Positions 13,684 through 28,581 of a stretch of 46,605 bases of DNA are shown here, one piece after another. The DNA is from an uncultured Alistipes sp. GTDB taxonomy: Bacteria; Bacteroidota; Bacteroidia; Bacteroidales; Rikenellaceae. The stretch lies in the NCBI GenBank assembly GCA_944321185.1, contig CALUKH010000013.1, positions 1 to 46,605 on the forward strand, written 5' to 3'. Each line of letters opens with the position of its first letter. Positions within the stretch are counted from its first letter, which is position 1. Below the pieces are notes generated by a model. It saw nothing but the letters and a program-made list of their open reading frames with translations. It searched no databases and was not told the DNA's origin. Both the position numbers and the translations under genes were made by a program.

Positions 13684-13995
13684 TCAGATCCGCGGCTTCA
13701 GAGCCATGCGGATCACCAGCGACAGGGCATAGATCAGCAACCCGTAGAGGATCGGGATGCAGGCGACGCGCAGACCTCCGGCCAACAGCGCGAGAGCCAC
13801 TTCACCAGCCCCACGCACGTAACCGAGCATCTGCGAGATGCCCAACAGCGTAAAGACCGCCCCCGAAGTGAGGGCCAGCAGTCCGATTTCGCGAATCCAG
13901 GCGGGAGCCTTCCAGGCCGCAAAGAGCAGTCCGACGAGTTCGAGGGTCAGCAGGGTCATGCCCCACAGACCGCCTTCGATAAAGAGTTGGAACAT
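13684..13995 (-). CDS. Small MotA/TolQ/ExbB-like inner-membrane protein
   Basis: 103 residues with about three membrane helices. The start MFQLFIEGGLWGMTLLTLE and the C-terminal VALALLAGGLRVACIPILYGLLIYALSL resemble the helix pair of MotA/TolQ/ExbB proton-channel subunits, especially the LAGGLxV-LYGL pattern of short Bacteroidetes members. It lacks the long cytoplasmic loop of full-size ExbB. I start at the ATG at 13995; a TTG two codons earlier is less likely. It is divergent from the LytTR gene. A motor or energy-coupling role is inference, as no TolR/ExbD partner lies next to it. Confidence 0.55.
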   Translation of the reverse strand: MFQLFIEGGLWGMTLLTLELVGLLFAAWKAPAWIREIGLLALTSGAVFTLLGISQMLGYVRGAGEVALALLAGGLRVACIPILYGLLIYALSLVIRMALKPRI

Positions 13996-14037
13996 ACGCA
14001 AACGTTTTAAGAGATTTTACGGGACCATTCCCGAAGA

Positions 14038-14045
14038 CAAAGGTA
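14038..14045 (-). promoter_or_regulatory. Candidate -7 element for the ExbB-like gene
   Basis: TACCTTTG on the minus strand fits TAnnTTTG exactly and lies 42 nt before the ATG. The best -33 candidate is TTCG 21 bp further upstream (plus 14067-14070). Confidence 0.5.
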
Positions 14046-14151
14046 GAAACCGAGCCCGCAAAAAATCGAAAAACAGCGTCGTCGAAACCCTGCACGGCCC
14101 GGTAGAAACCCCTCGAAGAGCCTATCGGCCCCCGGATGCGGTCCCGACACG

Positions 14152-14183
14152 ATTGGCGGTCGCGGAGAATTCACCTATATTTG
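14152..14183 (+). promoter_or_regulatory. Bacteroidetes-type promoter for the LytTR gene
   Basis: ATTG (14152-14155), 20 bp, then a perfect -7 TATATTTG (14176-14183), 23 nt before the chosen ATG. The promoter lies inside any longer reading of this gene and so supports the ATG at 14207. Confidence 0.7.
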
Positions 14184-14206
14184 CCGGCGTCAAAAACCGT
14201 CTCGCT

Positions 14207-14926
14207 ATGAAACAGAATCTGCCCTTTCTCTGGTGGCTTGTCTCGACTGCAGCTATTGCCGGACTCTTCGCGGCGATGGGTTACCAGGCCGATCAGGCCG
14301 TGCTGTTGGCCGTCGTCTTCCTGCCCGGAATGATTGTGCTGCGCTACTTCGTGCCGCAACTGTCGTTTGCCGATCGTCGCAAAGGGCTGGCCCATGCGCT
14401 CTGTCTGCTCTGTGCGGTCGTGACGATCGAATGCCTTGCGCTGGTGTTCGGCCACCGGGCTGCCTTCGACACGCTGCCCGACACACTGCCCGGCATGGCA
14501 TTCAATCCACTCTTCATTGCGCTGCTGCTCGTGGCGTTTATCGTTCCGGAGCAGTTGCTCGAACACTACACGGCCCGGCAGCATTTCCGCGATACGAAAC
14601 TGACATTCACCTCCGAGCGTCGGAAAATCACGCTCGATCCCGCCGTGATACTCTACCTCGAATCGAACGACGACGAGGTCTGGATCCGCACCGTCCCGGG
14701 TGAATCCTTCCGCACGAAAACACGCATTTCGCAATGGGAGGCACTGCTCGACCAGCGCTTCCTGCGCGTCCACCGCTCCTACATTGTCAACACGGAACAC
14801 ATCGATGAATGGCATCCGACCCGCATCCGTATCGGCGACCGACAGATCGAAATCTCCAGAAAATACAAGGATCTGGTGCGCGACCGTCTCGGACGTGAAC
14901 TCCGAGCGGACACCTCTCAAGAGTAA
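14207..14926 (+). CDS. Membrane-anchored LytTR-family transcription regulator
   Basis: 239 residues. The N-terminal 125 or so residues form four hydrophobic helices (FLWWLVSTAAIAGLFAAMGY; AVLLAVVFLPGMIVL; LCLLCAVVTIECLALVFG; LFIALLLVAFIVP). A short linker leads to a LytTR DNA-binding domain (about 136-235), with the strands TFTSERRKITLDPAVILYLE, the typical TRISQWEALL helix and FLRVHRSYIVNTEHI. There is no receiver domain, so this is a one-component, membrane-bound regulator rather than a LytR/AgrA-type partner of a kinase. A much longer in-frame reading begins upstream of the promoter and is rejected. Target genes are unknown. Confidence 0.85.
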   Translation: MKQNLPFLWWLVSTAAIAGLFAAMGYQADQAVLLAVVFLPGMIVLRYFVPQLSFADRRKGLAHALCLLCAVVTIECLALVFGHRAAFDTLPDTLPGMAFNPLFIALLLVAFIVPEQLLEHYTARQHFRDTKLTFTSERRKITLDPAVILYLESNDDEVWIRTVPGESFRTKTRISQWEALLDQRFLRVHRSYIVNTEHIDEWHPTRIRIGDRQIEISRKYKDLVRDRLGRELRADTSQE

Positions 14927-15685: not shown

Positions 15686-17830
15686 ATGAAAAAAATCATC
15701 CTGATGATGGCCCTTGCAGCAGTGGGGCTGGGCGCCTGCGACCGGCAGCGGCCCGAAGCCCTGAAGATCGACAACGCGCTGACGGCCGAGGAGATCGCCG
15801 CCGGACGCTTCACCCCCGAGGTGATGTGGAAGATGAGCCGTGCGGCCGCCTCGTCGCTCTCGCCCGACGGACGAACGCTCCTCTACCAGCAAACCGATTA
15901 CAACGTGGCGGAAAATCGCGGCGTTACGACTCTTTGGGTCGAAGACCTTGAGTCGAAACAGGCTACGCGTCTGACCGACTTCACGTCGAACAGCCTCGCG
16001 CCGCGCTGGAGTGCCGACGGCGGGAAGATCTACTTCCTCTCGGACCGCAGCGGCTCGATGCAGGTGTGGGAGATGACCCCCACGGGCGGCAACGTACGCC
16101 AGCTCTCCGACCTGGAGGGCGGCATCGAGGGCTTCGGCATCTCGCCCCGCGGCGACAAGGCCTGGTACGTACAGCGCGTACAGGTGGCCGACCGCCGTTC
16201 GGCCGACATCCACAAGGACATGGACAAGTCGCAGGCCCGCATCTACGACGACCTGATGGCCCGTCACTGGGACTACTGGGACGAGGGCGAGTACCTGCAC
16301 CTGTTCGTCGGTGACTTCGGAGCGGAGGGGATGAAGAAGGGCACCGACATTCTCGGCCCCGAAGCCGCCTGGGACACCCCGCTGGCCCCCTACTTCGACA
16401 TGGCCGAGATCGCCTGGAACAACTCGGGCACGATGCTGGCCTACACCTGCAAGCCTCTGACGGGTACGGCCTACGCCGTCTCGACCGATTCGGACATCTT
16501 CGTCTACGACCTCGCCTCGGGCCGCACGCAGAACATCTGCAAACCCATGAATGTCAACACCGAGGAGCCCGTTGAAGGGTCGTGCGACAACCTCCCGGGC
16601 TATGACAAATACCCGGTCTGGTCGCCCGACGATTCGAAAATCGCCTTCCTCTCGCAGCGCCGTGCCGGCAACGAGTCGGACAAGTCGCGGCTGTTCCTCT
16701 ACGACTGCGCGACGGCCGAGATACGCGATCTGACGGCGGATTTCGACTACAACGCCCAGAACGTCGTCTGGGAGGGCAACGACCGCGTATGGTTCATCGC
16801 TCCGATCGAGGGCACCTACCAGATCTGCCGCGTAGCCGCGACCGACGGCGAAGTGGAGGTCCTCACCCGCGGCGACCACAGCCTGACGGCCTTCACCACG
16901 GGCGGCGGCCGCATGGTGGCCGAACGCTCGACCATCTCGTCAGCCACGGAGTTCTTCGAGGTGAATACGGAGGACGGTACCCTGACGCAGATCTCGGCCA
17001 TCAACGACGCCATCTACAAGAACATCCGCATGGGCGAGGTCCAGAAACGCTGGGTGCGCACCACCGACGGCAAGCAGATGCTCACATGGGTGATCCTGCC
17101 GCCCGACTTCGACCCGGCCCGGAAATACCCGACGCTGCTCTACTGCGAGGGCGGTCCGCAAAGCGTGGTGGCCAACGGATGGAGCTACCGCTGGAACTTC
17201 CAGCTGATGGCCGCCCAGGGCTACGTGGTGGTGGCTCCCAACCGCCGCGGCGTGCCGTCGTTCGGCCAGGAGTGGCTCGACCAGATCTCGGGCGACTACT
17301 CGGGTCAAAATATCCGCGACTACCTCTCGGCCATCGACGACGTGGCCCGTGAACCGTGGGCCGACGAAGAACGCATGGGATGCGTCGGCGCCTCGTACGG
17401 CGGCTACTCGGTCTACTTCCTGGCCGGATGCCACGAAAAGCGCTTCAAGGCCTTCATCGCCCACTGCGGCATCTTCGACTTCGATTCGATGTACGGCGAG
17501 ACCGAGGAGCTGTGGTTCGTCAACAACGACTACGGCGGCCCGTACTGGGACCCCACGAACGCCACGGCTCAACGCTCGTATGCCAATTCGCCCCACAAGT
17601 TCGTCGAGAAGTGGGACACGCCGATCCTGATCTTCACCGGCGAGAAGGATTTCCGCATCCCCTACACGCAGTCGCTCGAGGCCTTCACGGCAGCCCGCGT
17701 ACGCGGCATCCCGGCCCGTCTGGTCGAGTTCCGCGACGAGGCACACCAGGTCTTCAAGCCTCAGAACTCGATGGTCTGGAACCGCGAATTCTTCGGCTGG
17801 CTCGACCGCTACGTCAAGCAGGCCGAATAG
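15686..17830 (+). CDS. Lipoprotein S9-family (prolyl-oligopeptidase-like) serine peptidase
   Basis: 714 residues. The N-terminus MKKIILMMALAAVGLGAC is a lipoprotein signal (Cys18), so the enzyme is anchored in the envelope. Residues about 50-420 carry WD40/TolB-like repeats of a beta-propeller (SLSPDGRTLLYQ; SADGGKIYFLSDRSG; SPDDSKIAFLSQRRAG). The C-terminal alpha/beta-hydrolase domain has the nucleophile Ser570 in GASYGGYS, Asp655 in GEKDFRIPYTQ and His687 in DEAHQVF, a complete triad. Family S9 enzymes release dipeptides or cleave short peptides. A C-terminal HQVF-x-x-Q-N motif is like acyl-aminoacyl/DPP5-type members. It ends in a strong terminator, so it is probably monocistronic. Confidence 0.93.
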   Translation: MKKIILMMALAAVGLGACDRQRPEALKIDNALTAEEIAAGRFTPEVMWKMSRAAASSLSPDGRTLLYQQTDYNVAENRGVTTLWVEDLESKQATRLTDFTSNSLAPRWSADGGKIYFLSDRSGSMQVWEMTPTGGNVRQLSDLEGGIEGFGISPRGDKAWYVQRVQVADRRSADIHKDMDKSQARIYDDLMARHWDYWDEGEYLHLFVGDFGAEGMKKGTDILGPEAAWDTPLAPYFDMAEIAWNNSGTMLAYTCKPLTGTAYAVSTDSDIFVYDLASGRTQNICKPMNVNTEEPVEGSCDNLPGYDKYPVWSPDDSKIAFLSQRRAGNESDKSRLFLYDCATAEIRDLTADFDYNAQNVVWEGNDRVWFIAPIEGTYQICRVAATDGEVEVLTRGDHSLTAFTTGGGRMVAERSTISSATEFFEVNTEDGTLTQISAINDAIYKNIRMGEVQKRWVRTTDGKQMLTWVILPPDFDPARKYPTLLYCEGGPQSVVANGWSYRWNFQLMAAQGYVVVAPNRRGVPSFGQEWLDQISGDYSGQNIRDYLSAIDDVAREPWADEERMGCVGASYGGYSVYFLAGCHEKRFKAFIAHCGIFDFDSMYGETEELWFVNNDYGGPYWDPTNATAQRSYANSPHKFVEKWDTPILIFTGEKDFRIPYTQSLEAFTAARVRGIPARLVEFRDEAHQVFKPQNSMVWNREFFGWLDRYVKQAE

Positions 17831-17851
17831 GCCGTCGGGCCATTCGGAAAA

Positions 17852-17884
17852 GGCTCTTCGTCCCGCAGGACGAAGAGCCTTTTT
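17852..17884 (+). terminator. Strong intrinsic terminator of the S9 peptidase gene
   Basis: A perfect 12-bp stem (17852-17863 with 17868-17879), CGCA loop, five T residues after it and four A residues before it. It separates the peptidase gene from the next operon. Confidence 0.95.
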
Positions 17885-17960
17885 CTGTTCGAATAGTCGC
17901 AGAAAAGCACCGAAAAAGAGACGGTTTCGTGATGAAAAACGCCTCGTTCGTTGAATTTAT

Positions 17961-17992
17961 TTCCGAAAACGGATGCCCGCATCTATTTTTGC
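17961..17992 (+). promoter_or_regulatory. Promoter of the fimbrillin/PCMD/OMP operon
   Basis: A perfect -7 TATTTTTG (17985-17992) with TTTC (17961-17964) 20 bp upstream. It lies 27 nt before the first ATG and excludes a start codon at 17951. It is the only good promoter I see before the seven-gene operon. Confidence 0.7.
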
Positions 17993-18019
17993 AGATATTC
18001 AGATAAAAGAATTTCGTAC

Positions 18020-19915
18020 ATGATGAAACGTTGGACCCCCCTGCTGCTTCTGCCCGTTCTGCTGGCAGCCTGCTCGAAGGCTCCCGAAAACGGCATGGAT
18101 CCGGCAGCGCAAACCATCGAGGTCGCCATCGGCTCGGGCCCCCGGGTCGACATGCTCCCCCAAACCGCCACACGTACCACACTGGACGAGGATGGCGTGA
18201 GCGTCAAATGGCAAACCAACGACCGGCTCGCTCTCTGGGCCGTCAACTCCGCCGCTCAGACCACTCTCGAAGCCGCGACCTTCAGCCTCTATCACTACAA
18301 CGAAGCCTACAACACGGCCAGCTTCCGCGGTACGGTCCCGGCCATGCCCGAAGATACCTATACTTATTATGCCGTGTCGCCCGTTCCGGCCGCGACCGAC
18401 GGTCTCAAGGCCAGTTACGACATCCCGGCCGTACAGGACGGAGCGTTCCACGGCGAGTGGGACGTGATGGTGGCCACGCCGATCGCAGACGCAGCCCCCC
18501 TGCGCGAACACGACCGCAAGGATGACAGCGGAATCAGCGACAACACGGACATCGTCAACCTGCGATTCGCCCACAAAACCCACGTGCTGAAGATCACCCT
18601 GCCGAAAAACGATCTCGGCGAACCGATCACGGAGATCGTGCTGACCTTCCCCGCGCCGGTAGTGGGCCGCCTGACGGTGGATGCGACGGATCCCGCGGCC
18701 GAGGGTACGTTGAGCAACGCCGGCGAGCAGGTGACGCTGCGTTTCGCCGAGCCGAAGGATGCCGGCGACGTGGTCTACGCCATGATCGCCCCCGTGACGC
18801 TCGACGAGGGGCAGCAGATCTCGATCGTGGCCTCGAGCGAGAGCCGCGAATCCGAGACGCGTACGTTCGCCCCGCAAAGCGCCGACCGCACCTTCGCCGC
18901 AGGCCACACCACGCCGATCAACTACAACGTTCCGGTCATGGCCGTCGAGCTTACCCGACTGACCTTCCACCTGGCCGAAACGGGCGTCAATACGCTGGGC
19001 GAGGCAATCGACACCTTCACGGTGACGGCTCCCGAAGGGTGGGTCTTCGAGGACGGCAACTCGAGCCGTACGTTCGACGTCACCGGCACGGGCGACTACA
19101 CGATCCGTTACCGCGGCTACCCGAACCCGACGAACGAAATGAGCGGATTCCGGGTCACCTACGACTCGGAACATGCCCTGCTGAGCGAGGATTTCACGAT
19201 GCCGGCCCTGAGCGAAGGCGGTCAGGCCCGCGTGGAATTCAGCGTACCCTGGCTGCTGTATGAAGATTTCAACGCCATTACAACCAATAGCAATTACGAC
19301 AACGAAGAGGTCGGAGGTACAAAAGTTGCCGATGGTGATGGCACTGGCATTGACTTAAGTCAATGGGGACTTCAAACCGGAGGCTGGACGGCGGCTCGCG
19401 TCGGTTCCGAAGAAGGCAAAGCCGTTCGCATCTGCGCCCGGGTCGAAAACCAGTCTTTTGCATCAAACACCTATAATGCCCGACTCGATTCGGCACCTTT
19501 CAGCGGGTTGAAAACAGATAAAAGTCCTCAGGTAAAAGTCTCGTTCAACTACAAGGGTGGACGGTGGTCCATACAACGTAAGAATATCTTCGGAGGCGAT
19601 GCAGGTCCGGGAGATGGCGATGCGACCTACAGTTGTGGCTATACCAACGAACAGGGTTGGCAACCCGGATCAACGACAATACCCTTTTTGCTCAAGACGA
19701 ATGTCGTGATTCCCGGCACATCAGGGGCTGATCGCAATCAGAATCAAAACTACGACAACATCTCTTACGAAGATTCGTTCATCATTCCCGCAGCCTCCAA
19801 TACGACTCGCGCTTCATGGATGGTCTCTTCGACTACGACGACAGCCCCATTCTCCGGCTTCAACGGAAACTATTGGCTCTATCTCGACAACATCAAAGTA
19901 CAAATCGTCCAATAA
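18020..19915 (+). CDS. Fimbrillin-like surface lipoprotein with a compositionally distinct C-terminal module
   Basis: 631 residues, lipobox LLAACSK (Cys18). Residues about 30-310 match fimbrillin-family (FimA/Mfa-type) proteins: an ATRTTLDEDGVSVKWQTNDRL segment near the N-terminus, then beta-rich sequence with NLRFAHKTHVLKITL and the AGHTTPINYNVPV end. A linking Ig-like stretch (about 315-412) follows. From about residue 415 (nt 19265) the DNA becomes visibly AT-richer and codon choice changes (AAA, ACA, TTT appear). This final module ends GNYWLYLDNIKVQIVQ, like the ends of the PCMD proteins in this operon, and is probably a jelly-roll carbohydrate- or ligand-binding domain. It heads the operon; two adjacent ATGs (18020, 18023) can serve as start. 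Adhesin or pilus-tip function is inference. Confidence 0.8.
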   Translation: MMKRWTPLLLLPVLLAACSKAPENGMDPAAQTIEVAIGSGPRVDMLPQTATRTTLDEDGVSVKWQTNDRLALWAVNSAAQTTLEAATFSLYHYNEAYNTASFRGTVPAMPEDTYTYYAVSPVPAATDGLKASYDIPAVQDGAFHGEWDVMVATPIADAAPLREHDRKDDSGISDNTDIVNLRFAHKTHVLKITLPKNDLGEPITEIVLTFPAPVVGRLTVDATDPAAEGTLSNAGEQVTLRFAEPKDAGDVVYAMIAPVTLDEGQQISIVASSESRESETRTFAPQSADRTFAAGHTTPINYNVPVMAVELTRLTFHLAETGVNTLGEAIDTFTVTAPEGWVFEDGNSSRTFDVTGTGDYTIRYRGYPNPTNEMSGFRVTYDSEHALLSEDFTMPALSEGGQARVEFSVPWLLYEDFNAITTNSNYDNEEVGGTKVADGDGTGIDLSQWGLQTGGWTAARVGSEEGKAVRICARVENQSFASNTYNARLDSAPFSGLKTDKSPQVKVSFNYKGGRWSIQRKNIFGGDAGPGDGDATYSCGYTNEQGWQPGSTTIPFLLKTNVVIPGTSGADRNQNQNYDNISYEDSFIIPAASNTTRASWMVSSTTTTAPFSGFNGNYWLYLDNIKVQIVQ

Positions 19916-19923
19916 CGACCGCC

Positions 19924-20721
19924 ATGAAACATACGCTGATTCTTCTGCTGGCATCGGCGGCCGTCGTGGCCGGAGGATGCTCCAAGAACGAAACCTCGCC
20001 CGAAAGCAATGGATACGGAACGCTGCGCATCGCCGTGGCATCCGACCCACAGGTCTCGACCCGCTCAGAGATCGAGGCCACAACGCAGGTTCCGTCAGGC
20101 GATGAGTTCGCACTCACGATGACGGGAACGGATTACGAACAAGGCTGGTCGACCCTTGCCGAGTTCAATGCCTCGCAGACACTCTTCGCATCGGGCAGCT
20201 ACACCGCTACGGTCACCTTCGGCGACCCGAAGGCCGAAGGGGTCGACAAACCCTTCTACAGCGGTTCGAAAACCGTCGGGATCATCGCCCGCCAAAGCGT
20301 CGAGGAGAGCATCCCGGCCCGGATCGCCAACTCACAGGTGCTGGTAACCTCGACGGAGGCATTCCGGCAATACTTCCACGATGCGACGTTCATCGTAACG
20401 ACCTCGGCCGGCAACCGCTTCACCTTCACACCCGGTGACGAGACGCCCGACGAAGCGGTCTTCGTCGAGGCCGGCACGCGGCTGACCCTGACCGGTGAGG
20501 CCATGCTCCAGAGCCAGACCGGTACGGCCTTCGACCGTCCGTACACCTTCCCCGGGCAGACGCTCGAGCAGACCGTCGCACGCACGCGTCACACCTTCTG
20601 CTTCGACGCCCGCGACAACGGCAGCGCCACGGTCACGGTCAACCTCTACGACGAATATCTCGACGAACGCACGTTCGATGTCGAACTGAACGAAAACGCC
20701 CAAAAAGATCCCAACGCATGA
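19924..20721 (+). CDS. DUF4493-like lipoprotein
   Basis: 265 residues with lipobox VVAGGCSK (Cys19) and acidic residues soon after the Cys (NETSPES), compatible with surface export of lipoproteins in Bacteroidetes. The mature part begins GYGTLRIAVASDPQVSTRSE, typical of DUF4493 domains, then YTATVTFGDPKAEGVDKPFYSGSK, a motif shared in outline with the next two genes (a short 'FY-G-x-x-x-F/V' after an acidic loop). It lies 8 bp after the fimbrillin-like gene and overlaps the next gene by 4 nt (ATGA), so translation is probably coupled. The molecular function is unknown. Confidence 0.75.
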   Translation: MKHTLILLLASAAVVAGGCSKNETSPESNGYGTLRIAVASDPQVSTRSEIEATTQVPSGDEFALTMTGTDYEQGWSTLAEFNASQTLFASGSYTATVTFGDPKAEGVDKPFYSGSKTVGIIARQSVEESIPARIANSQVLVTSTEAFRQYFHDATFIVTTSAGNRFTFTPGDETPDEAVFVEAGTRLTLTGEAMLQSQTGTAFDRPYTFPGQTLEQTVARTRHTFCFDARDNGSATVTVNLYDEYLDERTFDVELNENAQKDPNA

Positions 20722-22535
20722 AAACGAGACAAGATATGAAAACCACCTTTACCGGATTACTGACGGCCCTGACGCTGGGCGCCCTGACTCTGACGGGTTG
20801 CGTGAACGAGGAACCGCCCTACAAGCAGACGGGCACGGGCTCCACCACCTCCGGCTCGACCGGTTACCTGAGCGGCGAGATGAATCTGCGCGTGATCTAC
20901 GACGCACAGACCGATACGCAGACCGATGACACGGAGGATGCCACGCAAACTCCCCCCACGCAGCAATCCACGACCCGTGCCGAGCTGGCCACGGATGACT
21001 ACCGCGTACGGATCGTCAGCGCCGACGGGCTGAATACCCCCTTCGAGGGCAGCTACGCCGAACTGAAGGCCCGCCTGGCCGAAGGCCCCATGGAGCTTCC
21101 GATCGGATCGTACGATCTGACGGTCCGCTCGCATGCCGACACGGAGCTGCAGGCCGCAGCCTGGAACATGCCGGTCTACGGAACCAGCTACGCGTTCTCG
21201 ATCCGCAAGGATGAGACGACACCCGTCGACGATATCGTCTGCACGCTGCAGAACATCAAGGTGACGCTGCTCTGCTCGGCCGATCTGGCCGACCAGCTGG
21301 CCGACGACACCAAGGCTTCGGTCTCGCTGGGCGATGCCGTGCTGGAGTTTGACAAGGCGAAGTGGGACGGCCAGCAGGCGGCTTTCTTCATGCCGGCCGG
21401 CGAGACGAACGATCTCGAATTCCTGCTCACGGGCACGTTCGTCGAGGGTGGCGACGTCAGCTTCAGCCGCACGATCTCGGGCGTCAAGGCCGGTCAGTGG
21501 CGCAAGATCGAACTGGTGATCGCCTATGCCGATCAGGGCGGCATCAAGTTCGACATCCAGGTCGACAACTTCGTCCTCGACGAGACGATCACGATCAACG
21601 GTTCCGAAGGGGTCTGGGAGCCCGGCTACGAGGAGACGCCGCTCGTCGAAGCCCCTACGCTCGCCTGGACCGGTCACGACTTCAGCGAAACCTTCCAGCT
21701 GAAGGCCTCGATGTTCGACGAGGAGAGCCTCTGTTCGGAGCCCTTCGAGATCGTCGCCACGGTTCCCGGCAAGGTGGCCCGCTTCGATATTGCCATCTCG
21801 TCGACCAACGAGCAGTTCATGGCCTCGCTCCGCGAGCTGAAGATCGAGCAGTTTGACCTCTGCACGATCTCCGGCACGGAAGCCACCATGCTTCAGGGAT
21901 TCGGATTCCCGGTCGGCGACCAGGTCAAGGGCCAGACCGACAAGACCTTCTACATCGGCGGACAGCTGCCTTCGATGCTCTACGCCTTCGAGGGGACCCA
22001 CACGTTTGCCTTCACGGTGACCGACGAGGAGGGTCAGCAGGCCCGGGCCACGCTGACGCTGCTGGTCGACAAGGCCCACGAGGAGGGCACGGCCAATGCC
22101 CCGACGATCGTCATGGTCACCGACAACCACGACATCGCCGAGCCCTACGTGATGAACGAGATCAAGGATATCGAGATCGCGATCTCGGCTCCGAACGGCG
22201 GCATCAAGGAGCTGCTCGTCACGGTCGATGCTCCGGCACTGGAGCCCCTGCTTGAGGAAATCGGCCTCACGACGCTCGTCACGCCGGGCGTCGACCTCTG
22301 CTACCCCGACCAGACGGCTGCCGAAGTACTGGGTTCGGTCGTCGGATTCCCCGTCGGCGAACAGGTTCTCAACCAGACTTCGATCCCCTTCAAGGTGGGA
22401 GCCGACTTCGTCCAGATCCTCGCCGGTCTCGAATCCGCCGAGAGCCCCTGCACCTTCAAGTTCAACCTCCGTGTGACCGACAATGCGGGCGGCTCGACCT
22501 CGGCCACGCTGACCCTCGTTCAACCCGCCAAATAG
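20718..22535 (+). CDS. DUF4493-like lipoprotein with two homologous C-terminal Ig-like modules
   Basis: 605 residues. The ATG overlaps the previous stop codon; a second ATG at 20736 begins an even more typical lipoprotein signal (lipobox LTLTGC, Cys28 by the first start). After an acidic Thr/Gln-rich spacer (about 48-85) comes a DUF4493-like domain (about 90-300) with PIGSYDLTVRSHAD and CTLQNIKVTLLCS. The rest is two related modules, about 309-456 and 457-605, each with GFPVG(D/E)QVxxQT and ending in an FxVTD strand. These look like tandem Ig-type stalk domains of a surface protein. The ligand is unknown. Confidence 0.75.
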   Translation: MKTRQDMKTTFTGLLTALTLGALTLTGCVNEEPPYKQTGTGSTTSGSTGYLSGEMNLRVIYDAQTDTQTDDTEDATQTPPTQQSTTRAELATDDYRVRIVSADGLNTPFEGSYAELKARLAEGPMELPIGSYDLTVRSHADTELQAAAWNMPVYGTSYAFSIRKDETTPVDDIVCTLQNIKVTLLCSADLADQLADDTKASVSLGDAVLEFDKAKWDGQQAAFFMPAGETNDLEFLLTGTFVEGGDVSFSRTISGVKAGQWRKIELVIAYADQGGIKFDIQVDNFVLDETITINGSEGVWEPGYEETPLVEAPTLAWTGHDFSETFQLKASMFDEESLCSEPFEIVATVPGKVARFDIAISSTNEQFMASLRELKIEQFDLCTISGTEATMLQGFGFPVGDQVKGQTDKTFYIGGQLPSMLYAFEGTHTFAFTVTDEEGQQARATLTLLVDKAHEEGTANAPTIVMVTDNHDIAEPYVMNEIKDIEIAISAPNGGIKELLVTVDAPALEPLLEEIGLTTLVTPGVDLCYPDQTAAEVLGSVVGFPVGEQVLNQTSIPFKVGADFVQILAGLESAESPCTFKFNLRVTDNAGGSTSATLTLVQPAK

Positions 22536-22541
22536 AGAAGC

Positions 22542-24677
22542 ATGAAACAACTCCTGACATACCTGATTCCGGTGGTGGCGCTGACGCTGGGTGCCTGCTC
22601 GAAGCAGGCCGGAGCGATCGATCCCGACGCTGCGACGGGGAGCCTCTCGATCCACGTCTCGACCCGCGCCGAGGGTGCCGACGGCGACTACGACCCGACG
22701 GACCACCTCACCGTGCGCATCTACAACGAAAGCGACGAACTGATCCGCAAATACGCCTCGAAGGAGGAGCTGCCCGAACGGCTGGAACTCATTGCCGGAC
22801 AGTATCGTGCGGCGGTAGAGGCCGGCGAGGCGGTGGAAGCCTCCTTCTCGCAGCGCTTCTACAAGGGCGAGCAGAGCTTTGAGGTGACCCCCGGCGCAAA
22901 CACCCCCGTCGAGGTGAAATGCACGCTGCAGAATACGGCCGTGGCCACCCTCTTCGAGGAGAGTGTCGCCGCAAACTTCGGCTCGGCATTCGAGGTGCGG
23001 GTGATGGCCGGAACGTCGTATGACGACTCGCGCGCCGACGCGGCCTCGACCCTCCGCTACACCTCCAGCACGACGGGCTACTTCACGCTCCCCGAAGGGG
23101 TCGAGTCGCTCGCCTGGAAGTTCAGCGGCGAACACCCGTCGCGCGGCACAATCGAACAGAGCGGCACGATCTCCGACGTAAAGGCCGCAAGCCGCTATAC
23201 GCTCACGTTCCGCTTCTCGCCCGATCTGCCGGGCTTCATCGAGGCCGTGGCCATCCGCGTCGACGATTCGACCGACGACTTCGACGACACGATCATCTGG
23301 AGCCCCGATCCCACGATCGAGGGCGACGGCTTCGATCTCGCCGAACCGCAGCAGTACACGGGCGGCGAGAAACGCTTCCTGATCTCGACCGTCAAACCGA
23401 CCACCTCGGCCACCCTGATCTTCGGGGAACAGCGTTACGACCTGCTGGCCGAGGCCTCGACGCGCGCAACGAACGGTCTTACGGTCGTCAAGACGGCCGA
23501 AAACGCCCTGACGGTCACCCTCGCGGAGGAATTCTTTGCCGGATGTGCGGGCGGTGACCACTCGCTTCGCTTCGAGGTGACCGACAATGGCGGCGGGCAG
23601 GGCGATGCCGAGTGCATCATCTCGCTGCAGGGCCTCGCAACCCCCACGGCCGCCGATTACGATCTGTGGCAAAACACCGTCACGCTGCGGGCCCGGGTAT
23701 TCGACCCGGCCGCAGAGGTCCGCTTCGGACTGCGCACCCAAGACGGCGAGTGGCTGGAGATGACCGGTGAAGAGACCGGCGACGGCTTCCGCAGAGCCAC
23801 GTTCGGCGTCGAATGGGAGCAGTCGACCAACGAAAACGGCCAAACGGTCTACACGCCGAAAGCCGGAACGGGCATCTGGGCCGGCTGCCAATACGAGTGC
23901 CGTGCGGTGATCAACGGTAGCGAAAGCCTCGCAACGCTGACCACGGCCGCCGGACAGACCGTCCCGGGCGGCGACATGGAGGACGGCTCGATGAGCTGCT
24001 TCAACAACAACCACGGTTCGTTCTGGGACAGCGGCAACAACTCGATGAGTGACCCGCTCTGCGTTCAGAGCTCCTACAACGGCATGACGGGCAGCGCCTG
24101 TGCCCGACTGCAGGCCAACAAACCGCTCGCTTTTGTCGATCTGGCGGCCGGCAACCTCTTCACGGGAAGTTTCAACCAGTCGGGACTCGGCGGCACGGTC
24201 TCCTTCGGACAACCCTACGACTGGCAGGCCCGTCCGCGCATGATGCGCGTGCGCTACTACGCCGAATCGCTCGGGCTGGTCAACCAAAACCAGCACACGG
24301 GACCGCTTGCCGTCGGATCGCAGGACCAGGCCCGCATCTACGCCGCCATCGTCGACTGGAATGCCACACACAACGTCACCTCGGGATCGTCCAGCCCCTC
24401 GGGCGTCTGGGATCCCGCCAAGGGCATCTACGGCGGAGACAACACAACCGAAGCCTCCGGACGGATCATCGCCTACGCCTCGCTGCTGATCGACCAGCAG
24501 TCGTCGGGCGAGGAGATGATCACGGTCGAACTGCCGTTCCATTACTACGACACCTCGGCCAAGCCGTCGGGCAAATACACGCTGGTCATCTCATGCGCCA
24601 CGAGCGCCTACGGTGACTTCATGAACGGCTGCACGTCCAACGTGCTCTACGTCGACGACTTCCAATGGGTTTACTAA
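22542..24677 (+). CDS. DUF4493-PCMD surface lipoprotein
   Basis: 711 residues, lipobox LTLGACSK (Cys19). Residues about 30-260 form a DUF4493-like domain (SLSIHVSTRAEGADGDY; LELIAGQYRAAVEAGEAVEASF; CTLQNTAVATLFEE). An Ig-like stretch follows, with one copy of the module duplicated in the preceding gene (HSLRFEVTDNGGGQG near residue 350). The last 240 residues are a PCMD (putative carbohydrate metabolism domain) beta-jelly-roll, with PGGDMEDGSMSCF at its start, AAGNLFTG in the middle and LYVDDFQWVY at the end. PCMD proteins are usually encoded with surface glycan or adhesin systems. It lies 6 bp after the previous gene. Glycan binding is inference. Confidence 0.8.
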   Translation: MKQLLTYLIPVVALTLGACSKQAGAIDPDAATGSLSIHVSTRAEGADGDYDPTDHLTVRIYNESDELIRKYASKEELPERLELIAGQYRAAVEAGEAVEASFSQRFYKGEQSFEVTPGANTPVEVKCTLQNTAVATLFEESVAANFGSAFEVRVMAGTSYDDSRADAASTLRYTSSTTGYFTLPEGVESLAWKFSGEHPSRGTIEQSGTISDVKAASRYTLTFRFSPDLPGFIEAVAIRVDDSTDDFDDTIIWSPDPTIEGDGFDLAEPQQYTGGEKRFLISTVKPTTSATLIFGEQRYDLLAEASTRATNGLTVVKTAENALTVTLAEEFFAGCAGGDHSLRFEVTDNGGGQGDAECIISLQGLATPTAADYDLWQNTVTLRARVFDPAAEVRFGLRTQDGEWLEMTGEETGDGFRRATFGVEWEQSTNENGQTVYTPKAGTGIWAGCQYECRAVINGSESLATLTTAAGQTVPGGDMEDGSMSCFNNNHGSFWDSGNNSMSDPLCVQSSYNGMTGSACARLQANKPLAFVDLAAGNLFTGSFNQSGLGGTVSFGQPYDWQARPRMMRVRYYAESLGLVNQNQHTGPLAVGSQDQARIYAAIVDWNATHNVTSGSSSPSGVWDPAKGIYGGDNTTEASGRIIAYASLLIDQQSSGEEMITVELPFHYYDTSAKPSGKYTLVISCATSAYGDFMNGCTSNVLYVDDFQWVY

Positions 24678-24694
24678 CGATTAAACGCCTGAAC

Positions 24695-25717
24695 ATGCGC
24701 CATATACTTACCCTGCTGCTGTTTGCGGCATTCGCACTCCCGACTCCGGCACTCCTTGCCCGGGAGCTGCCCGCCGCCGACAGCACCAAGATCCTCCCGC
24801 CCCGGAAACCGATTCCCGCGGACAGCGCCAAGGTCCTCGCGGCCTCGAAACTGATTCCCGCCGACAGCACCCGGAAGTTGCCCGCCACGGACAGCGCCAA
24901 GGCCCTCCCGGCCCGGAAAACGGTTTCCGAGAACAGCACAGCCACCACCTCCACGCGGGAACGGCTCGCTGTCGAGAACTCCGACTCGCTCGGCAACAGA
25001 CACGCAAATGTTGAAAACCGGCCGCTGACGATCAACGAGATGCGCAGCCAGCGCGGCCTGACCGATACGCACAACCTCTTTGTTCCGAAGGGTCAGTGGG
25101 TCTTCGGCGGCACGGCTTCGTACTCGACCCACACCAACACGGGCTACCAGTTCCTGGTTGTCGAGGGCATCGACTCGAAGGGTTATACCTTCAAGATCAG
25201 CCCGATGATCGCCTATGCCTTCCACAACAACATGGCGCTGGGCGGACGCTTCATCTACTCGCGCACGCTGCTCAAACTCGACAAGGCCTCGATCAACTTC
25301 GGCGACGAGGATTCGAACGTCAACCTCAACGTGCAGGACTACTACGCCCTGCAGCACTCCTACCAGGTGGCCGCCATCTGGCGTCAGTACATTCCGCTGG
25401 GCCGCAACAAGCGCTTCGCCCTCTTCAACGAAATGTCACTGGCCGGCGGCGGTACCGAGGCCCGTTTCGCCAACGGATCGCCCGTCAAGGGCACCTATCA
25501 GACCGGCTACACCTTCTCGCTGGGTATCTCGCCCGGAATCATCGCCTTCGCCACGAACAACATGGCCGTCGAGGTGAACGTCGGCGTGATGGGTATTACG
25601 TTCGAACACACCGAACAGGTCCACAACCAGGTCAGTGTCGGCGAACGCAACCTGAGCCAGATGAACTTCAAGGTCAATATCTTCTCGATCGGCCTCGGCG
25701 TGGCCTTCTACCTCTAA
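24695..25717 (+). CDS. Outer-membrane beta-barrel protein with a repeated, sequon-rich N-terminal linker
   Basis: 340 residues. The start MRHILTLLLFAAFALPTPALLA is a signal peptide; an ATG at 24665 lies inside the previous gene. Residues about 27-75 form a linker with a 14-residue period (A-D-S-x-K repeated), followed by SENSTATTSTRERL. From about residue 105 (ENRPLTINEMRSQRG) the protein becomes an amphipathic beta-barrel: WVFGGTASYSTH, FKISPMIAYAF, MALGGRFIYSR, ending MNFKVNIFSIGLGVAFYL with a terminal hydrophobic residue as in barrels inserted by BamA. It is paralogous to the next gene. The barrel probably anchors or exports the neighbouring lipoproteins, but that is inference. Confidence 0.75.
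   Translation: MRHILTLLLFAAFALPTPALLARELPAADSTKILPPRKPIPADSAKVLAASKLIPADSTRKLPATDSAKALPARKTVSENSTATTSTRERLAVENSDSLGNRHANVENRPLTINEMRSQRGLTDTHNLFVPKGQWVFGGTASYSTHTNTGYQFLVVEGIDSKGYTFKISPMIAYAFHNNMALGGRFIYSRTLLKLDKASINFGDEDSNVNLNVQDYYALQHSYQVAAIWRQYIPLGRNKRFALFNEMSLAGGGTEARFANGSPVKGTYQTGYTFSLGISPGIIAFATNNMAVEVNVGVMGITFEHTEQVHNQVSVGERNLSQMNFKVNIFSIGLGVAFYL
24773..24898 (+). repeat. 42-bp (14-residue) tandem repeat in the linker of the first barrel gene
   Basis: Three units start at 24773, 24815 and 24857. Units 1 and 2 have the frame x-A-D-S-x-K-x-L-x-x-x-K-x-I; the third starts the same way (PADSTRKL) and continues into another DSAK. The nucleotide repeats are degenerate but clearly in phase. 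Each unit carries a D-S-(T/A) triplet. Confidence 0.75.
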
Positions 25718-25729
25718 ACCCGGAATGAC

Positions 25730-26617
25730 ATGAAACGTATCTTCCACATACTCGCCGCTCTCTGCATCGCGCTCCCGGCCCTGGGCCAGAGCCGCGCCGA
25801 AGCGCCCTTCACGCCGGCTGAAGCCCCCGCGGCCGACAGTCTGTCGTCGCCACGTGCCGAAACCCTGACCGACCCCTCGGTCATCACGCCGAAACAGCAC
25901 TTCCTGCCTACGCGCCGTCGTATCGACCGCGAAATCGACAAGATCAAGTTCGCCTACAAGGGCGAGGTGATCATGGGTCTGACGGCCTCCTACGGCACGC
26001 TCACCAGCGACGACACGGACGTATTGCTCATCCTGGACAACATCAATGCCGACGGTTCGGTGGCCACCATCAAACCCTTCGTCGGATACTTCTACCGCGA
26101 CAACCGCTGTCTGGGTGCCCGATTCGGATACAACTACATGAGCGGTACGATCGACAAGGGCGGAATCTTCGACCTGGGCGAAGCCAACGACATATCGCTC
26201 AACATCCCCTACCTCGATTTCAAGAGCAACAACTACTCGTTCGGAATCTTCCACCGCTCCTATGCCGGTCTCGATCCGAAGGGCCGCTTCGGTCTCTTCG
26301 CCGAGTTCGAACTCTCGGTCTCGACCGGTACGTCGCGCTTCTCCTACGAGTCCGAAGGCAAAATCAAACAAACCTACAGTGACAATACGCAGCTCAAACT
26401 GGCGTTTAATCCGGGAGCGGCGGTCTACATCTTCCCGAATGTCTGCGCGACGCTGTCGTTCGGACTGGGCGGTATCCAGTACACCTCCGTCAACCAGCGG
26501 GACGAACTGGGCAACAAACTCGGCACCCGTGAGGCCTCGAACATGAAGTTCAAACTCAACATCCTGGCCATCAACATCGGTATGACGATCCACATGTGGG
26601 ACAAGAAAAAGCAATAA
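25730..26617 (+). CDS. Outer-membrane beta-barrel protein, paralogue of the preceding gene
   Basis: 295 residues with a signal peptide (MKRIFHILAALCIALPALGQ). A short Pro/Ala linker (APAADSLSSPRAETLTDP) leads to a barrel with EVIMGLTASYGTL, IKPFVGYFYRDNRCLGARFGYNYM and a last strand in MKFKLNILAINIGMTIHMW. The strand order, the GLTASY/GGTASY opening and the (N/K)FK(V/L)NI ending match the gene 12 bp upstream, so this is a tandem duplication. Unlike its neighbour, it has five charged residues (DKKKQ) after the final aromatic strand, which is unusual for the barrel C-terminal signal. Its role is unknown. Confidence 0.72.
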   Translation: MKRIFHILAALCIALPALGQSRAEAPFTPAEAPAADSLSSPRAETLTDPSVITPKQHFLPTRRRIDREIDKIKFAYKGEVIMGLTASYGTLTSDDTDVLLILDNINADGSVATIKPFVGYFYRDNRCLGARFGYNYMSGTIDKGGIFDLGEANDISLNIPYLDFKSNNYSFGIFHRSYAGLDPKGRFGLFAEFELSVSTGTSRFSYESEGKIKQTYSDNTQLKLAFNPGAAVYIFPNVCATLSFGLGGIQYTSVNQRDELGNKLGTREASNMKFKLNILAINIGMTIHMWDKKKQ

Positions 26618-26620
26618 CGC

Positions 26621-28375
26621 ATGAAACGACTTCTCTGCTATCTGCTCGCCGGAGCCATGCTCGCGGGCACGTCGTGCATCACCAACGATATCCCCTACCC
26701 GACGGTCGAGGTGGCCATCAATGACATCAGCGGCGAGGGTTTCTCGCTGACGAACGTCGATCTGACCACCCGTACGGTAAACATCGCGCTGGACGAGGCC
26801 ACCGACATCCGCAACGTCCGCATCGACAAGGTGACCTACGCCGTCACGCCCCACAACACGAACATCGACCGGCAGACGTTCCTCGACAACATCCGCACGT
26901 CGCAGCCCCTGACCGGGACGTTCGACCTGCGCACGCCGCTCTACGTCACCCTGAGCCTCTATCAGGACTACGACTGGCAGATCGTCGCCACGCAGAACAT
27001 CCCGATGAGCTTCCGCGTCGAGGGGCAGATCGGCTCGCCGGAGTTCGACACCGCAAACCGCATCGCCACGGCCTACGTCGCCAAGGATGCCGATCGCAGC
27101 CGGGTGACGATCACCGAACTCAAACTCGGCCCCGCATCGACCGAAAGCGTCACCACGACCTACTCCCCGTCGATCGAGGAGCTGTCGGCACTCGACTACA
27201 GCTCGCCCGATGCCGGCGATCCGACACTCGGCACGCCCCACTTCGTCGACGTAAGCTGCCACGGACGCACCGAACGCTGGTTGCTCTACGTGCTGCCGAC
27301 GGACCGGAGCGTTTCGACGGAGGCCGTCGATGCATGGTCGGGCGTGGTATGGCTCCGCGGATCGGGCATCGCCGGACAGCCCATGGGCTTCCGCTACCGC
27401 GTCGGAACCGAGGGCGAATGGAGCGAAGTGCCCGACGTGAAGATCGTCGACGGCACCTTCTCGGCCGCCTTTGCCGCCGAACCGCTGACCACCTATCAGT
27501 TCAAGTCCTACTGCGGCAGCGACGAGAGCGAACCCACGACCGTCACCACCGAAGGGGTCGAACAGATGCCCAACAGCGGACTGGAGGAGTGGTCCAAACC
27601 GGGCAGTCCGTGGCTGCCGTTCCTCTCCGACGAGGCGGGCAAACCCATCTCCCCGTTCTGGGCCACGGGCAACAACGGCTCGACCACGCTCAGCGACAAG
27701 GACAACGTCACCACCCCCGACGAATCGACAATCCGCCCCGGAACAACGGGTACGAAATCGGCTCGTCTGGCCAGCAAGAAGGTCATCATCAAACTGGCTG
27801 CCGGCAACCTCTTCACGGGTGAATTTGCCACCACGAAGGGTACCAACGGCGTAGTGAACTTCGGACGCCCCTTCACGCTGCGGCCCACGGCCCTGCGCGT
27901 CTGGATGAAATACACGCCCGGCAAGATCAACATGATGGGATCGAATCTCCCGGCCGGCGAGTCGATCCAGACCGGTGATCCAGACAACGGCTCGATCTAC
28001 ATCGCCCTCGGAACCTGGACCAAGGAGAAGTACGGCATGGGGGCCAACGGGGCCGGTGATGATGCGAAAGGCGGCCAGCCGTTCGGTACGGACGACAGTC
28101 CGGTGAGCATCGACACGCGCGACATGAAGACCTTCTTCAACCCCAAGGGCGAGGATGTGGTCGGCTACGGAGCCCGCTTCTTCACGGAGAGTGTCGACGA
28201 CTGGACCCAGATCACCATCCCGATCGAGTACACCTCGACCGACCGCAAACCGACCCATCTGATCGTTGTCTGCTCGGCCTCGCGCTGGGGCGACTACTTC
28301 ATCGGCAGCAGCGAAAGCGTCATGTGGGTCGACGATTTCGAGTTGATCTACACCCCGGTGGCCGACAGCGAATAG
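26621..28375 (+). CDS. PCMD-domain surface lipoprotein
   Basis: 584 residues, lipobox AGTSCIT (Cys19) with acidic Asp soon after. Residues about 25-310 are beta-rich Ig-like modules (VEVAINDISGEGFSLTNVDL; FRVEGQIGSPEFDTAN), which correspond to those often found before PCMD. The PCMD jelly roll fills about residues 314-584: PNSGLEEWSKPGSPW at the start, IKLAAGNLFTG in the middle, MWVDDFELIY at the end. The LAAGNLFTG and VDDF motifs are shared with the DUF4493-PCMD protein. It starts 3 bp after the second barrel gene and ends the operon. Confidence 0.82.
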   Translation: MKRLLCYLLAGAMLAGTSCITNDIPYPTVEVAINDISGEGFSLTNVDLTTRTVNIALDEATDIRNVRIDKVTYAVTPHNTNIDRQTFLDNIRTSQPLTGTFDLRTPLYVTLSLYQDYDWQIVATQNIPMSFRVEGQIGSPEFDTANRIATAYVAKDADRSRVTITELKLGPASTESVTTTYSPSIEELSALDYSSPDAGDPTLGTPHFVDVSCHGRTERWLLYVLPTDRSVSTEAVDAWSGVVWLRGSGIAGQPMGFRYRVGTEGEWSEVPDVKIVDGTFSAAFAAEPLTTYQFKSYCGSDESEPTTVTTEGVEQMPNSGLEEWSKPGSPWLPFLSDEAGKPISPFWATGNNGSTTLSDKDNVTTPDESTIRPGTTGTKSARLASKKVIIKLAAGNLFTGEFATTKGTNGVVNFGRPFTLRPTALRVWMKYTPGKINMMGSNLPAGESIQTGDPDNGSIYIALGTWTKEKYGMGANGAGDDAKGGQPFGTDDSPVSIDTRDMKTFFNPKGEDVVGYGARFFTESVDDWTQITIPIEYTSTDRKPTHLIVVCSASRWGDYFIGSSESVMWVDDFELIYTPVADSE

Positions 28376-28546
28376 CCTGTCGGCCGAGGGGGGGGTGGAA
28401 ACAAGCCGGAAACCGGAGGCCCAACCCGGCCGGCCCATCGGGCATCGCGATGCGCGGCCCGAAAAGCCGAAAACCCGGTCCAGTCCGGATAGACGGAGGC
28501 TGCGAAACAACCCCGACAAAGACTCAAAGCCTCGCTTACACGAAAA
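28376..28546. other. GC-rich gene-free spacer after the surface operon
   Basis: Contains a G8 run (28388-28395), a perfect 12-bp palindrome GCATCGCGATGC (28442-28453) and short CCGG-rich repeats. No gene is visible. The terminator follows directly. Confidence 0.5.
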
Positions 28547-28581
28547 AGAGCGGCGCTTCGGAAATCCGAAGCGCCGCTCTT
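28547..28581. terminator. Bidirectional terminator between the surface operon and the transglycosylase gene
   Basis: A 16-bp perfect stem (28547-28562 with 28565-28580), extendable by one A-T pair, around a 2-nt loop. On the minus strand it is followed by TTTTTCG, a good T tract; on the plus strand by TTCAATTTA. The minus-strand stop codon is 19 bp away. Confidence 0.88.

Follow-up and report, generated by a model that had tools for sequence, protein, structure and literature searches.

Complexes between outer-membrane barrels and lipoproteins are called a hallmark of the Bacteroidota (PMC12578637), and examples from the literature serve nutrient import, membrane-protein assembly and S-layers. 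In Bacteroides thetaiotaomicron, BT1926-BT1927 consists of a predicted 8-stranded barrel, regarded as a putative anchor, and an S-layer lipoprotein (PMC12578637; PMC12548429). The levan and dextran utilisomes combine SusC2D2 with GH and SGBP components, and Ig-stalked lipoproteins sit on the lip of the barrel (PMC7618045). Docking has a precedent in the Bacteroidota BAM, in which the conserved N-terminus of BamH is held like a wedge in the barrel of BamG (PMC12578637).

Here, an operon of seven genes (A-G) from an uncultured Alistipes sp. was analyzed within a window of 46,605 nucleotides, the whole stretch of DNA under study. In the best reading of our comparison, the operon would be comparable with BT1926-BT1927 and with the utilisomes, but without SusCD. 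As in BT1926-BT1927, a predicted 8-stranded barrel is paired with an adjoining predicted surface lipoprotein, a likeness of anatomy; the operon differs by its two barrels, its five lipoproteins with DUF4493, PCMD and fimbrillin-like domains, and by having no apparent invertible promoter within 17600-18300. The N-terminal part of lipoprotein G resembles SGBP-lev (levan binding protein 8a9y_T, 2e-6), whereas no SusC, SusD or enzyme was found in the operon and small barrels replace the TonB-dependent transporter of the utilisomes. Similar to BamG-BamH, the barrel may act as an attachment platform via the conserved N-terminus of a surface lipoprotein, although BamG is a 14-stranded FadL homologue and barrel E fits OmpA (PMC12578637). 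The jelly rolls of D and G keep the calcium aspartate and most pocket aromatics of BT2081 (3hbz; PMC2954218), but not its proposed nucleophile. With the type V pili of FimA and Mfa1 (PMC5789003), the operon shares a fimbrillin-like protein (A) and an enrichment of TR[AST] near the N-termini of A-D, while no Mfa2/FimB anchor domain was found and the C-termini are jelly-roll.

Results

Operon structure

The features of the locus, in positions of the window, are the following.

17848..17883, + strand: terminator of the upstream S9 peptidase gene (-31.3 kcal/mol, z -6.2), which parts this gene from the operon
17984..17991, + strand: Bacteroidota-type -7 promoter box TATTTTTG, 36 nt 5' of gene A
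18020..19915, + strand: A, lipoprotein with an Mfa_like_1-related (fimbrillin-like) N-terminal part and a C-terminal domain with an EDF...YLDNI pattern
19924..20721, + strand: B, lipoprotein made up of a single DUF4493 domain (Pfam, 9.9e-35)
20718..22535, + strand: C, lipoprotein with DUF4493 (Pfam, 8.4e-35) and an Ig/PKD-like part (PKD/Ig matches under their cut-offs)
22542..24677, + strand: D, lipoprotein with DUF4493 (Pfam, 8.8e-40), Ig-like part, Fn3 and PCMD jelly roll (3.1e-26)
24695..25717, + strand: E, small beta-barrel of the outer membrane, extended at its N-terminus by a flexible stretch (structure model)
25730..26617, + strand: F, second barrel and paralogue of E (hhalign 8.9e-57; found by the E profile at 2.2e-46)
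26621..28375, + strand: G, lipoprotein with the post-cysteine motif CIxNDIPYP, Ig-like part, Fn3 and PCMD jelly roll (Pfam, profile searches)
28546..28581, + strand: terminator-like stem-loop of 16 pairs, 170 nt 3' of G

All seven genes are co-directional (18020-28375) and, from A to G, separated by 8, -4, 6, 17, 12 and 3 bp. A sigma-70 scan revealed no promoter at A and was replaced by a test for the Bacteroidota -7 box. Within 160 nt upstream, TANNTTTG was present in 28 of 32 orthologues of A, compared to 8/45 for B, 3/70 for C, 14/82 for D, 5/66 for E, 2/50 for F and 5/52 for G, with upstream windows shorter than 160 nt left out of the counts. Separate promoters within the run were looked for, and no -7 box was found on the + strand inside the operon (18021-28375). 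The stem-loop behind G was the sole + strand stem listed by the terminator scan, which did not pick up the 17848-17883 stem. The tight gaps, the box before A and the stem after G support A-G, at the level of sequence, as the one transcription unit claimed in the original prediction. Its composition of five lipoproteins and two barrels was likewise borne out: five of the proteins have a lipoprotein signal, and the two barrels are paralogues.

Conservation of the locus

In the draft genome, all matches to DUF4493 (3) and PCMD (2) fall in this operon. Sixty loci of the family were picked by hand from genomes with PCMD or DUF4493 matches; the order A-B-C-D-E-F-G was found in 32 of them, and E and F were inverted upstream in 4 more, fractions (32/60, 36/60) that do not represent prevalence. 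Among 80 loci from named genomes, the two arrangements occurred 48 and 13 times (at least 23 contigs, judged by their length, are common to both sets). Two Alistipes strains, An66 (L095) and dk3624 (L120), are among the relatives with all seven genes in order. Within the family, orthologues are thus not mostly scattered single genes, and the gene order is beyond chance because it recurs in many genomes. Furthermore, in half of these complete family loci (18 of 36), the fetched stretch contained none of the four window neighbours that were tested; hence, the seven genes stay together as a block.

A survey of 150 family genomes revealed PCMD in 124, DUF4493 in 103 and a match to the E profile in 103. 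DUF4493 and the E profile were both matched in 98 genomes, only one of them in 5 each, and neither in 42. In Alistipes, 61 of 62 sampled genomes contain both DUF4493 and a barrel of the E/F family, and one (G115) has neither match; at another member of the genus (L017), C-G only are seen. Part of the conservation within the genus is due to vertical inheritance.

Across 247 genomes of the order, DUF4493 was found in 26 and E in 33 (21 strong matches), with no E match in 214. Each of the 21 strong E matches is followed by a PCMD protein, either directly or after the second barrel only, and 2 of them were without any DUF4493 found. The 12 weak E relatives had no match to A, B, C, D or G within the fetched 3.6-13 kb. 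Outside the family, A was found in a single locus (L088) of 20 order loci. The median identity to the window copy, calculated for loci L010-L047 with a recognised start only, was 55% for E, 52% for F and 47% for G, compared to 35, 33, 32 and 36% for A, B, C and D. In correction of the original prediction, the constant core consists of E/F and G, with A-D as the variable part.

In most other families with the locus, one long DUF4493-bearing protein replaces A and B. A simple A-B fusion was rejected after 14 such proteins (720-931 aa) were checked, as the A profile matched none and, for 7 of them, the B profile scored best by E-value. All seven of the long proteins scanned against Pfam have DUF4493; a PCMD match was found in 6 and was above the cut-off in 5. 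At one locus (L170), E-F-G follows genes named by eye as xylulokinase, xylose isomerase and sugar transporter.

The barrels and lipoprotein G

E and F carry signal peptides and no lipoprotein cysteine. According to its structure model, E is an OmpA-like, probably 8-stranded barrel: OmpA-type barrels top the matches listed for the model. FadL is not among the VIA matches listed, which does not count against that family. A FapF-type polypeptide transporter was rejected, with weak Foldseek rows only. In E, the extracellular half, at which docking would take place, is less conserved (0.54) than the periplasmic half (0.69), given the topology assigned by inference; this speaks against docking. An 8-stranded OmpA-like barrel has no lumen for transport; since E models as such a barrel, export through it is unlikely. 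The barrels had been proposed to anchor or export the lipoproteins. The linkage of barrel and lipoprotein across genomes was borne out.

In G, the motif C[ILV]xND[ILV]P is kept in 113 of 135 orthologues; a correlation of motif and barrel is confounded by overall divergence. The lipobox of the window copy is atypical (GTS-C), and was missed by the pattern and read by eye, while the boxes of relatives are typical. Acidic residues after the cysteine (15/52, compared to a background of 19%) revealed no clear surface-export bias.

With the Pfam curated cut-off at 28, the PCMD domain (PF13201) scored 93.0 bits in D and 145.9 bits in G, and the ends of both proteins are one homologous domain (hhalign 2.1e-94). 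Profile searches of D against solved structures yielded 3s30 (8.8e-27), 3hbz (1.3e-26) and Fn3 chains. For the C-terminal end of A, no PCMD match was obtained and the hhalign probability of a relation to PCMD was about 1%, but residues E (28/30) and D (28/30) occupy positions resembling calcium ligands. The similar end strands noticed in A, D and G are real, and in D and G reflect homology, whereas A has no detectable profile relation to PCMD.

In the numbering of BT2081, Asn200 is kept in 35/35 G and 35/36 D proteins, and the calcium residue Asp351 in 35/35 and 34/36. Asp338 is present in 32/35 G proteins and at least 90% of D proteins. Phe202 (G 31/35, D 32/36) and Phe206 (G 20/35, D 28/36) are otherwise replaced by tyrosine, and the pocket residue Tyr261 is tyrosine in just 26/35 G and 19/36 D proteins. 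At the column of Asp259, the proposed nucleophile of BT2081, the six commonest residues are S, I, Q, H, A and N in G (26/35 rows) and R, Q, N, H, K and S in D (30/36 rows), with no aspartate among them. As Asp259 is not kept, a hydrolase function of the PCMD copies in D and G was rejected. The role of PCMD given in the literature is a structural inference (PMC2954218).

The lipoproteins A-D

The lipoprotein cysteines of A, B, C and D were detected by pattern. At least two of the six residues following the cysteine were acidic in 18/33 A, 25/45 B, 47/70 C and 57/83 D proteins (long DUF4493 proteins from other families are counted with D), compared to 16-23% of internal 6-mers. This enrichment agrees with the predicted surface-type lipoprotein signals. 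The counts leave out orthologues in which no start or no lipobox was recognised (e.g., 10/43 for A and 17/69 for G). TR[AST] was found 10-90 residues past the cysteine in 15/33 A, 27/45 B, 34/70 C and 22/83 D proteins, where shuffles expect 3.8, 4.0, 4.0 and 6.7, and in 7/52 G proteins (4.6 by shuffle).

Mfa_like_1 was matched by 17 of 30 aligned A proteins (best 3.2e-14), not by the window copy; the term fimbrillin-like thus holds for A only, and by way of its relatives. C and D have a part in common (hhalign 2e-9). The idea that DUF4493 is itself a fimbrillin domain was rejected, as whole-protein profiles were aligned by signal peptides and the TR motif only.

When solved structures were searched with profiles of A, E and DUF4493, only chance-level or signal-peptide matches came up. 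In NCBIfam, the window proteins had no match above the curated cut-off and eight relatives had no match at all; the PHROGs search gave no match. Neither Pfam nor NCBIfam (E up to 1) gave a match to the C-terminal sorting domain of type IX secretion cargo, and among the papers searched none was on DUF4493 or a "PCMD domain".

Discussion

With a probability of about one half, we propose that the products of the operon form a complex of surface lipoproteins that is anchored by the barrels and binds glycan, and that may be an adhesin or a glycan-capture array. Surface exposure, docking, complex assembly, glycan binding and adhesion are what we infer. E and F would form a platform in the outer membrane without a transport lumen, onto which G would dock via the conserved peptide just past its lipidated cysteine, pointing its PCMD jelly roll outward on the Ig/Fn3 stalk. 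A-D would be displayed beside this E/F-G core, diverging faster. Further jelly-roll ends would be provided by D and probably also by A, and DUF4493/Ig modules by B and C. The jelly rolls would hold a glycan without cutting it.

An S-layer-like coat, in which A-D and G polymerise into a lattice anchored by E/F and serve as a shield instead of binding glycans, is the strongest alternative, yet an unlikely one. It shares the anatomy of BT1926-BT1927 with its small barrel and nearby lipoprotein, would account for several large Ig/jelly-roll lipoproteins within one unit, and agrees with the fast divergence of A-D, as expected of exposed coats. However, BT1927 is phase-variable, and the single inverted repeat found around the promoter of the operon within 17600-18300 (15 nt, 87%) lies inside both flanking coding regions. 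Moreover, the PCMD pocket residues are mostly conserved, and there are five different lipoproteins instead of one major coat protein.

Somewhat more doubtful is a type V pilus-like fibre with A as fimbrillin, the DUF4493 proteins as pilin-like subunits processed at an arginine some 26-43 residues past the cysteine, and the PCMD proteins as tip or anchor. The Mfa_like_1 matches of A and the TR[AST] motifs of A-D above shuffle expectation point in this direction, as Mfa1, 3 and 4 mature by Arg cleavage of the beta1-beta2 loop (PMC5789003). Against this, a comparison of the DUF4493 profile with the fimbrillin part of A showed no relation (probability at most about 4% by hhalign); with signal peptides removed, no relation is left, and the idea is kept solely as a rival. 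In addition, a FimB/Mfa2-type anchor domain is absent from the seven proteins (Pfam, E up to 1), PCMD at the C-terminus of D occupies the place expected for a C-terminal donor strand, and of the 20 order loci outside the family, A was found at the one given above only.

Nutrient uptake, in which the lipoproteins capture glycan for import through E/F as a channel in the manner of a utilisome without SusCD, seems improbable. The levan-binding-like N-terminal half of G, the xylose-type genes named by eye in front of E-F-G at L170 and the PCMD proteins reported in PULs (PMC2954218) are in line with it. In contrast, E fits an OmpA-type barrel, and no SusC, SusD or glycoside hydrolase match was found with Pfam in the seven proteins and 20 other proteins of the some 36 window genes. 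Such a barrel does not offer the lumen that import would call for.

An export device, in which E/F flip lipoproteins through the outer membrane, would fit the tight genetic linkage of E to a PCMD lipoprotein and the wording of the BT1926 literature (anchor or secretion partner), but is very improbable given the lumen-less barrel and the 214 of 247 order genomes without an E match. Surface lipoproteins are widespread in Bacteroidota, so that, with these genomes in mind, E cannot be a general requirement for their display.

A broader proposal can be made, at somewhat less than even odds. The locus might be a Bacteroidales-wide, undescribed, modular and non-transporting counterpart of the utilisome, with paired lumen-less 8-stranded barrels as a pure anchor for the constant G and with interchangeable DUF4493 arms, holding glycans or host mucus without import. 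The arms would be B, C and D with the fimbrillin-like A in Alistipes, and the long DUF4493...PCMD protein elsewhere.

With this operon, DUF4493, a domain of unknown function, gains a defined partner set, and a testable minimal pair can be named, made up of lipoprotein G, which carries the CIxNDIPYP peptide, and barrel E. DUF4493 and a barrel of this family occur together in 61 of 62 sampled Alistipes genomes, and the unit is also met with in further families of the order; both findings suggest that its surface function is a basic one in this common gut genus.

Organization of the operon and transcription signals

The operon encodes a fimbrillin-like lipoprotein (A), three DUF4493 lipoproteins (B, C, and D), two outer-membrane barrels (E and F), and a PCMD lipoprotein (G).

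18020–28375, + strand: genes A–G, seven genes with gaps of 8, −4, 6, 17, 12, and 3 bp
17848–17883: strong terminator belonging to the upstream S9 peptidase gene

Lipoprotein signal peptides were identified in A, B, C, and D by pattern search and in G by eye; the box of G (GTS-C) is atypical, and its relatives carry typical boxes. The signal peptides of E and F are of the ordinary kind. A Bacteroidota-type −7 box lies 36 nt upstream of A. The box precedes A in 28 of 32 orthologues and is rarer in front of the other genes (B 8/45, C 3/70, D 14/82, E 5/66, F 2/50, G 5/52), and it does not occur on the + strand within the window's operon. A terminator-like stem follows G. As the box precedes A, is absent inside the operon, and the genes lie between a terminator and a terminator-like stem, these signals support well the original prediction of one promoter and one terminator.

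On the − strand (20757–24542), an open frame of 1261 codons runs antisense to C and D; the codon score calls no gene, and the frame is probably an effect of high G+C. Elsewhere in the window, positions 11118–12668 (+) encode a protein that joins a response-regulator receiver to a PglZ domain, the architecture of the type IX secretion regulator PorX, and a LytTR regulator is located at 13838–14926.

Conservation of the gene order

Two sets of loci were compared: 60 Rikenellaceae regions, hand-chosen from genomes with matches, and 80 loci fetched from named genomes with the E profile (best 80 of 266), assigned to Alistipes, Rikenellaceae, Candidatus Tidjanibacter, or Bacteroidales. Since no fewer than 23 contigs of the second set are equal in length to contigs of the first, the sets are not independent. 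Of the 60 regions, 36 contain all seven families; A-B-C-D-E-F-G is the order in 32 of these, and 48 of the 80 named-genome loci read ABCDEFG. Thus, the order expected to recur in relatives was indeed recovered. In four complete family loci (L019, L020, L024, and L040; 4/36) and 13 of the 80 (<F<EABCDG), F and E lie upstream on the opposite strand with A-B-C-D-G intact, which is an inversion of the barrel pair. Among the other 19 named-genome loci, 15 run into a contig end and are under 17 kb for that reason; the remaining four have the orders DABCDEFG, ABCEDFG, BACDEFG, and CDEGF. Two of the 32 ordered loci carry an extra D-like gene before A (L031:2089–4578 and L039:16865–19288; 807–829 aa, best match D, 132–147 nt upstream of A); the one in L031 has a Pfam match to PCMD and none to DUF4493.

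Half of the complete family loci (18 of 36) have none of the window's S9, NUDIX, SLT, and porin neighbors within the fetched stretches of at most 20 kb; hence, block A–G stays together in differing surroundings. Within the genus, 61 of 62 sampled genomes contained DUF4493, the same 61 an E-profile match (in genome G066 an F-like barrel only), and all 62 PCMD. The exception, G115, has one PCMD gene and neither a DUF4493 nor a barrel match. In another exceptional genome (G099, locus L017), C–G are present and A and B absent.

Domains and conserved residues

In Pfam, B, C, and D each match DUF4493, and D and G end in PCMD; these are the only matches to either family in the draft genome, which is 1.97 Mb long and 79% complete. 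Profile–profile comparison of domain pieces revealed DUF4493 common to B, C, and D (8e-42 to 4.8e-32), an Fn3 domain (7.2e-22) and PCMD (2.1e-94) common to D and G, and an Ig-like part common to C and D (2e-9); the two barrels, E and F, are paralogues (8.9e-57). Mfa_like_1, the fimbrillin-like family, was matched by 17 of 30 A proteins, and the N-terminal part of A showed no profile relation to DUF4493.

Three lipoproteins had been noted to end in a similar strand. In D and G, this strand is the last of the PCMD jelly roll; the end of A showed no profile relation to PCMD in the same comparison and has an Asp at a similar place in 28 of 30 proteins. Residues are numbered by the PCMD structure BT2081 (3hbz), with the offset derived from the printed alignment. 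The end-strand Asp of D and G aligns with Asp351 (35/35 G, 34/36 D), a calcium ligand in BT2081 (PMC2954218). In the pocket, Asn200 is retained by 35/35 G and 35/36 D proteins and Phe202 by 31/35 G and 32/36 D (Tyr in the remainder), and position 206 is always Phe or Tyr. Position 261 is Tyr in 26/35 G and 19/36 D, and Phe in another 5 and 10, respectively. G retains Asp338 in 32/35 and Phe340 in 30/35; D692, at the Asp338 position of D, shows conservation of 90% or more. Neither D nor G keeps Asp259, which was proposed as the nucleophile (PMC2954218). With the pocket largely kept and Asp259 lost, the sequences favor binding rather than hydrolysis by the PCMD domains.

The barrel and G across the order

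The E profile matched in 33 of 247 Bacteroidales genomes, 21 strongly (1e-20 or better) and 12 weakly. A PCMD protein lay downstream of E, immediately or past a second barrel, in all 21 strong cases, and DUF4493 occurred in 19; genomes G321 and G331 keep the pairing and have no DUF4493 match. In G287, two barrels and gene G share one contig and the DUF4493 genes lie on another. The stretches fetched around the 12 weak E relatives, four of which are shorter than 10 kb, contained nothing that matched A–D or G. Most other families of the order with the locus show the same order with a single long first protein (720–931 aa) replacing A and B (DUF4493 in 7/7 scanned, PCMD too in 6/7); locus L088 carries the full A–G set. 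Median identities to the window copy were 55% (E), 52% (F), and 47% (G), and 32–36% for A–D. Given this pairing and the higher conservation of E, F, and G, the barrel and G form the constant unit and A–D the variable part.

Locus L170 (4365–12614) contains E-F-G without a DUF4493 match, directly after xylulokinase-, xylose isomerase-, and sugar transporter-like genes (by eye), possibly a substrate clue or chance. A diverged barrel with a short PCMD protein (361–411 aa) lacking the G motif CIxNDIPYP was seen at L176:9012–10951, L177:10496–12490, L173:8067–10067, and L174:9586–11572. The F orthologue of L074 (G338:C191:3665–4408, draft genome) has one in-frame TAG, from either damage or sequencing error.

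Proposed docking and alternative explanations

CIxNDIPYP, right behind the lipid cysteine of G, is nearly fixed (C[ILV]xND[ILV]P in 113/135). The N-terminal half of G is similar (2e-6) to SGBP-lev, a levan binding protein whose N-terminal domain belongs to a rigid unit with SusC and lies on the barrel lip in the levan utilisome (PMC7618045); by analogy, G may dock on E/F via its post-cysteine peptide. The motif is also missing from the two of the 21 loci with the lowest barrel scores (67 and 100 bits), which fits a barrel–peptide contact but is confounded by general divergence. The predicted extracellular half of E is less conserved than the periplasmic half, which counts against the proposed docking on E/F. 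At least two of the six residues behind the cysteine are acidic in 55–69% of A–D, versus 16–23% of internal 6-mers; G has no such pattern (15/52). Acidic residues there are taken as a sign of surface lipoproteins in a paper on the BAM complex (PMC12578637).

Among four possible alternatives to a barrel-anchored, glycan-binding lipoprotein complex, an S-layer-like coat ranks first and a type V pilus-like fiber second. For the fiber, TR[AST] near the N-terminus of A–D is three- to nine-fold enriched over shuffles (unclear in G), and a looser pattern has its median position 26–29 residues after Cys in A, B, and D and 43 in C; type V pilins are cleaved at an arginine in the first loop (PMC5789003). 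However, Pfam showed no anchor protein among the seven, and no profile link joins DUF4493 to the fimbrillins, which weakens the idea. An uptake complex is a possible third; SusC, SusD, and glycoside hydrolases were absent from the 27 window proteins scanned, and the A–G system is therefore no PUL by content. An export device comes last.

In the literature on DUF4493/PF14900/PF13201/PCMD, the BT2081 structure paper was the only relevant one found in a search that excluded most subscription papers and preprints; elsewhere the letters PCMD stood for other things. Complexes of barrels with surface lipoproteins are already known, and it is the composition of the A–G unit that appears to be new.
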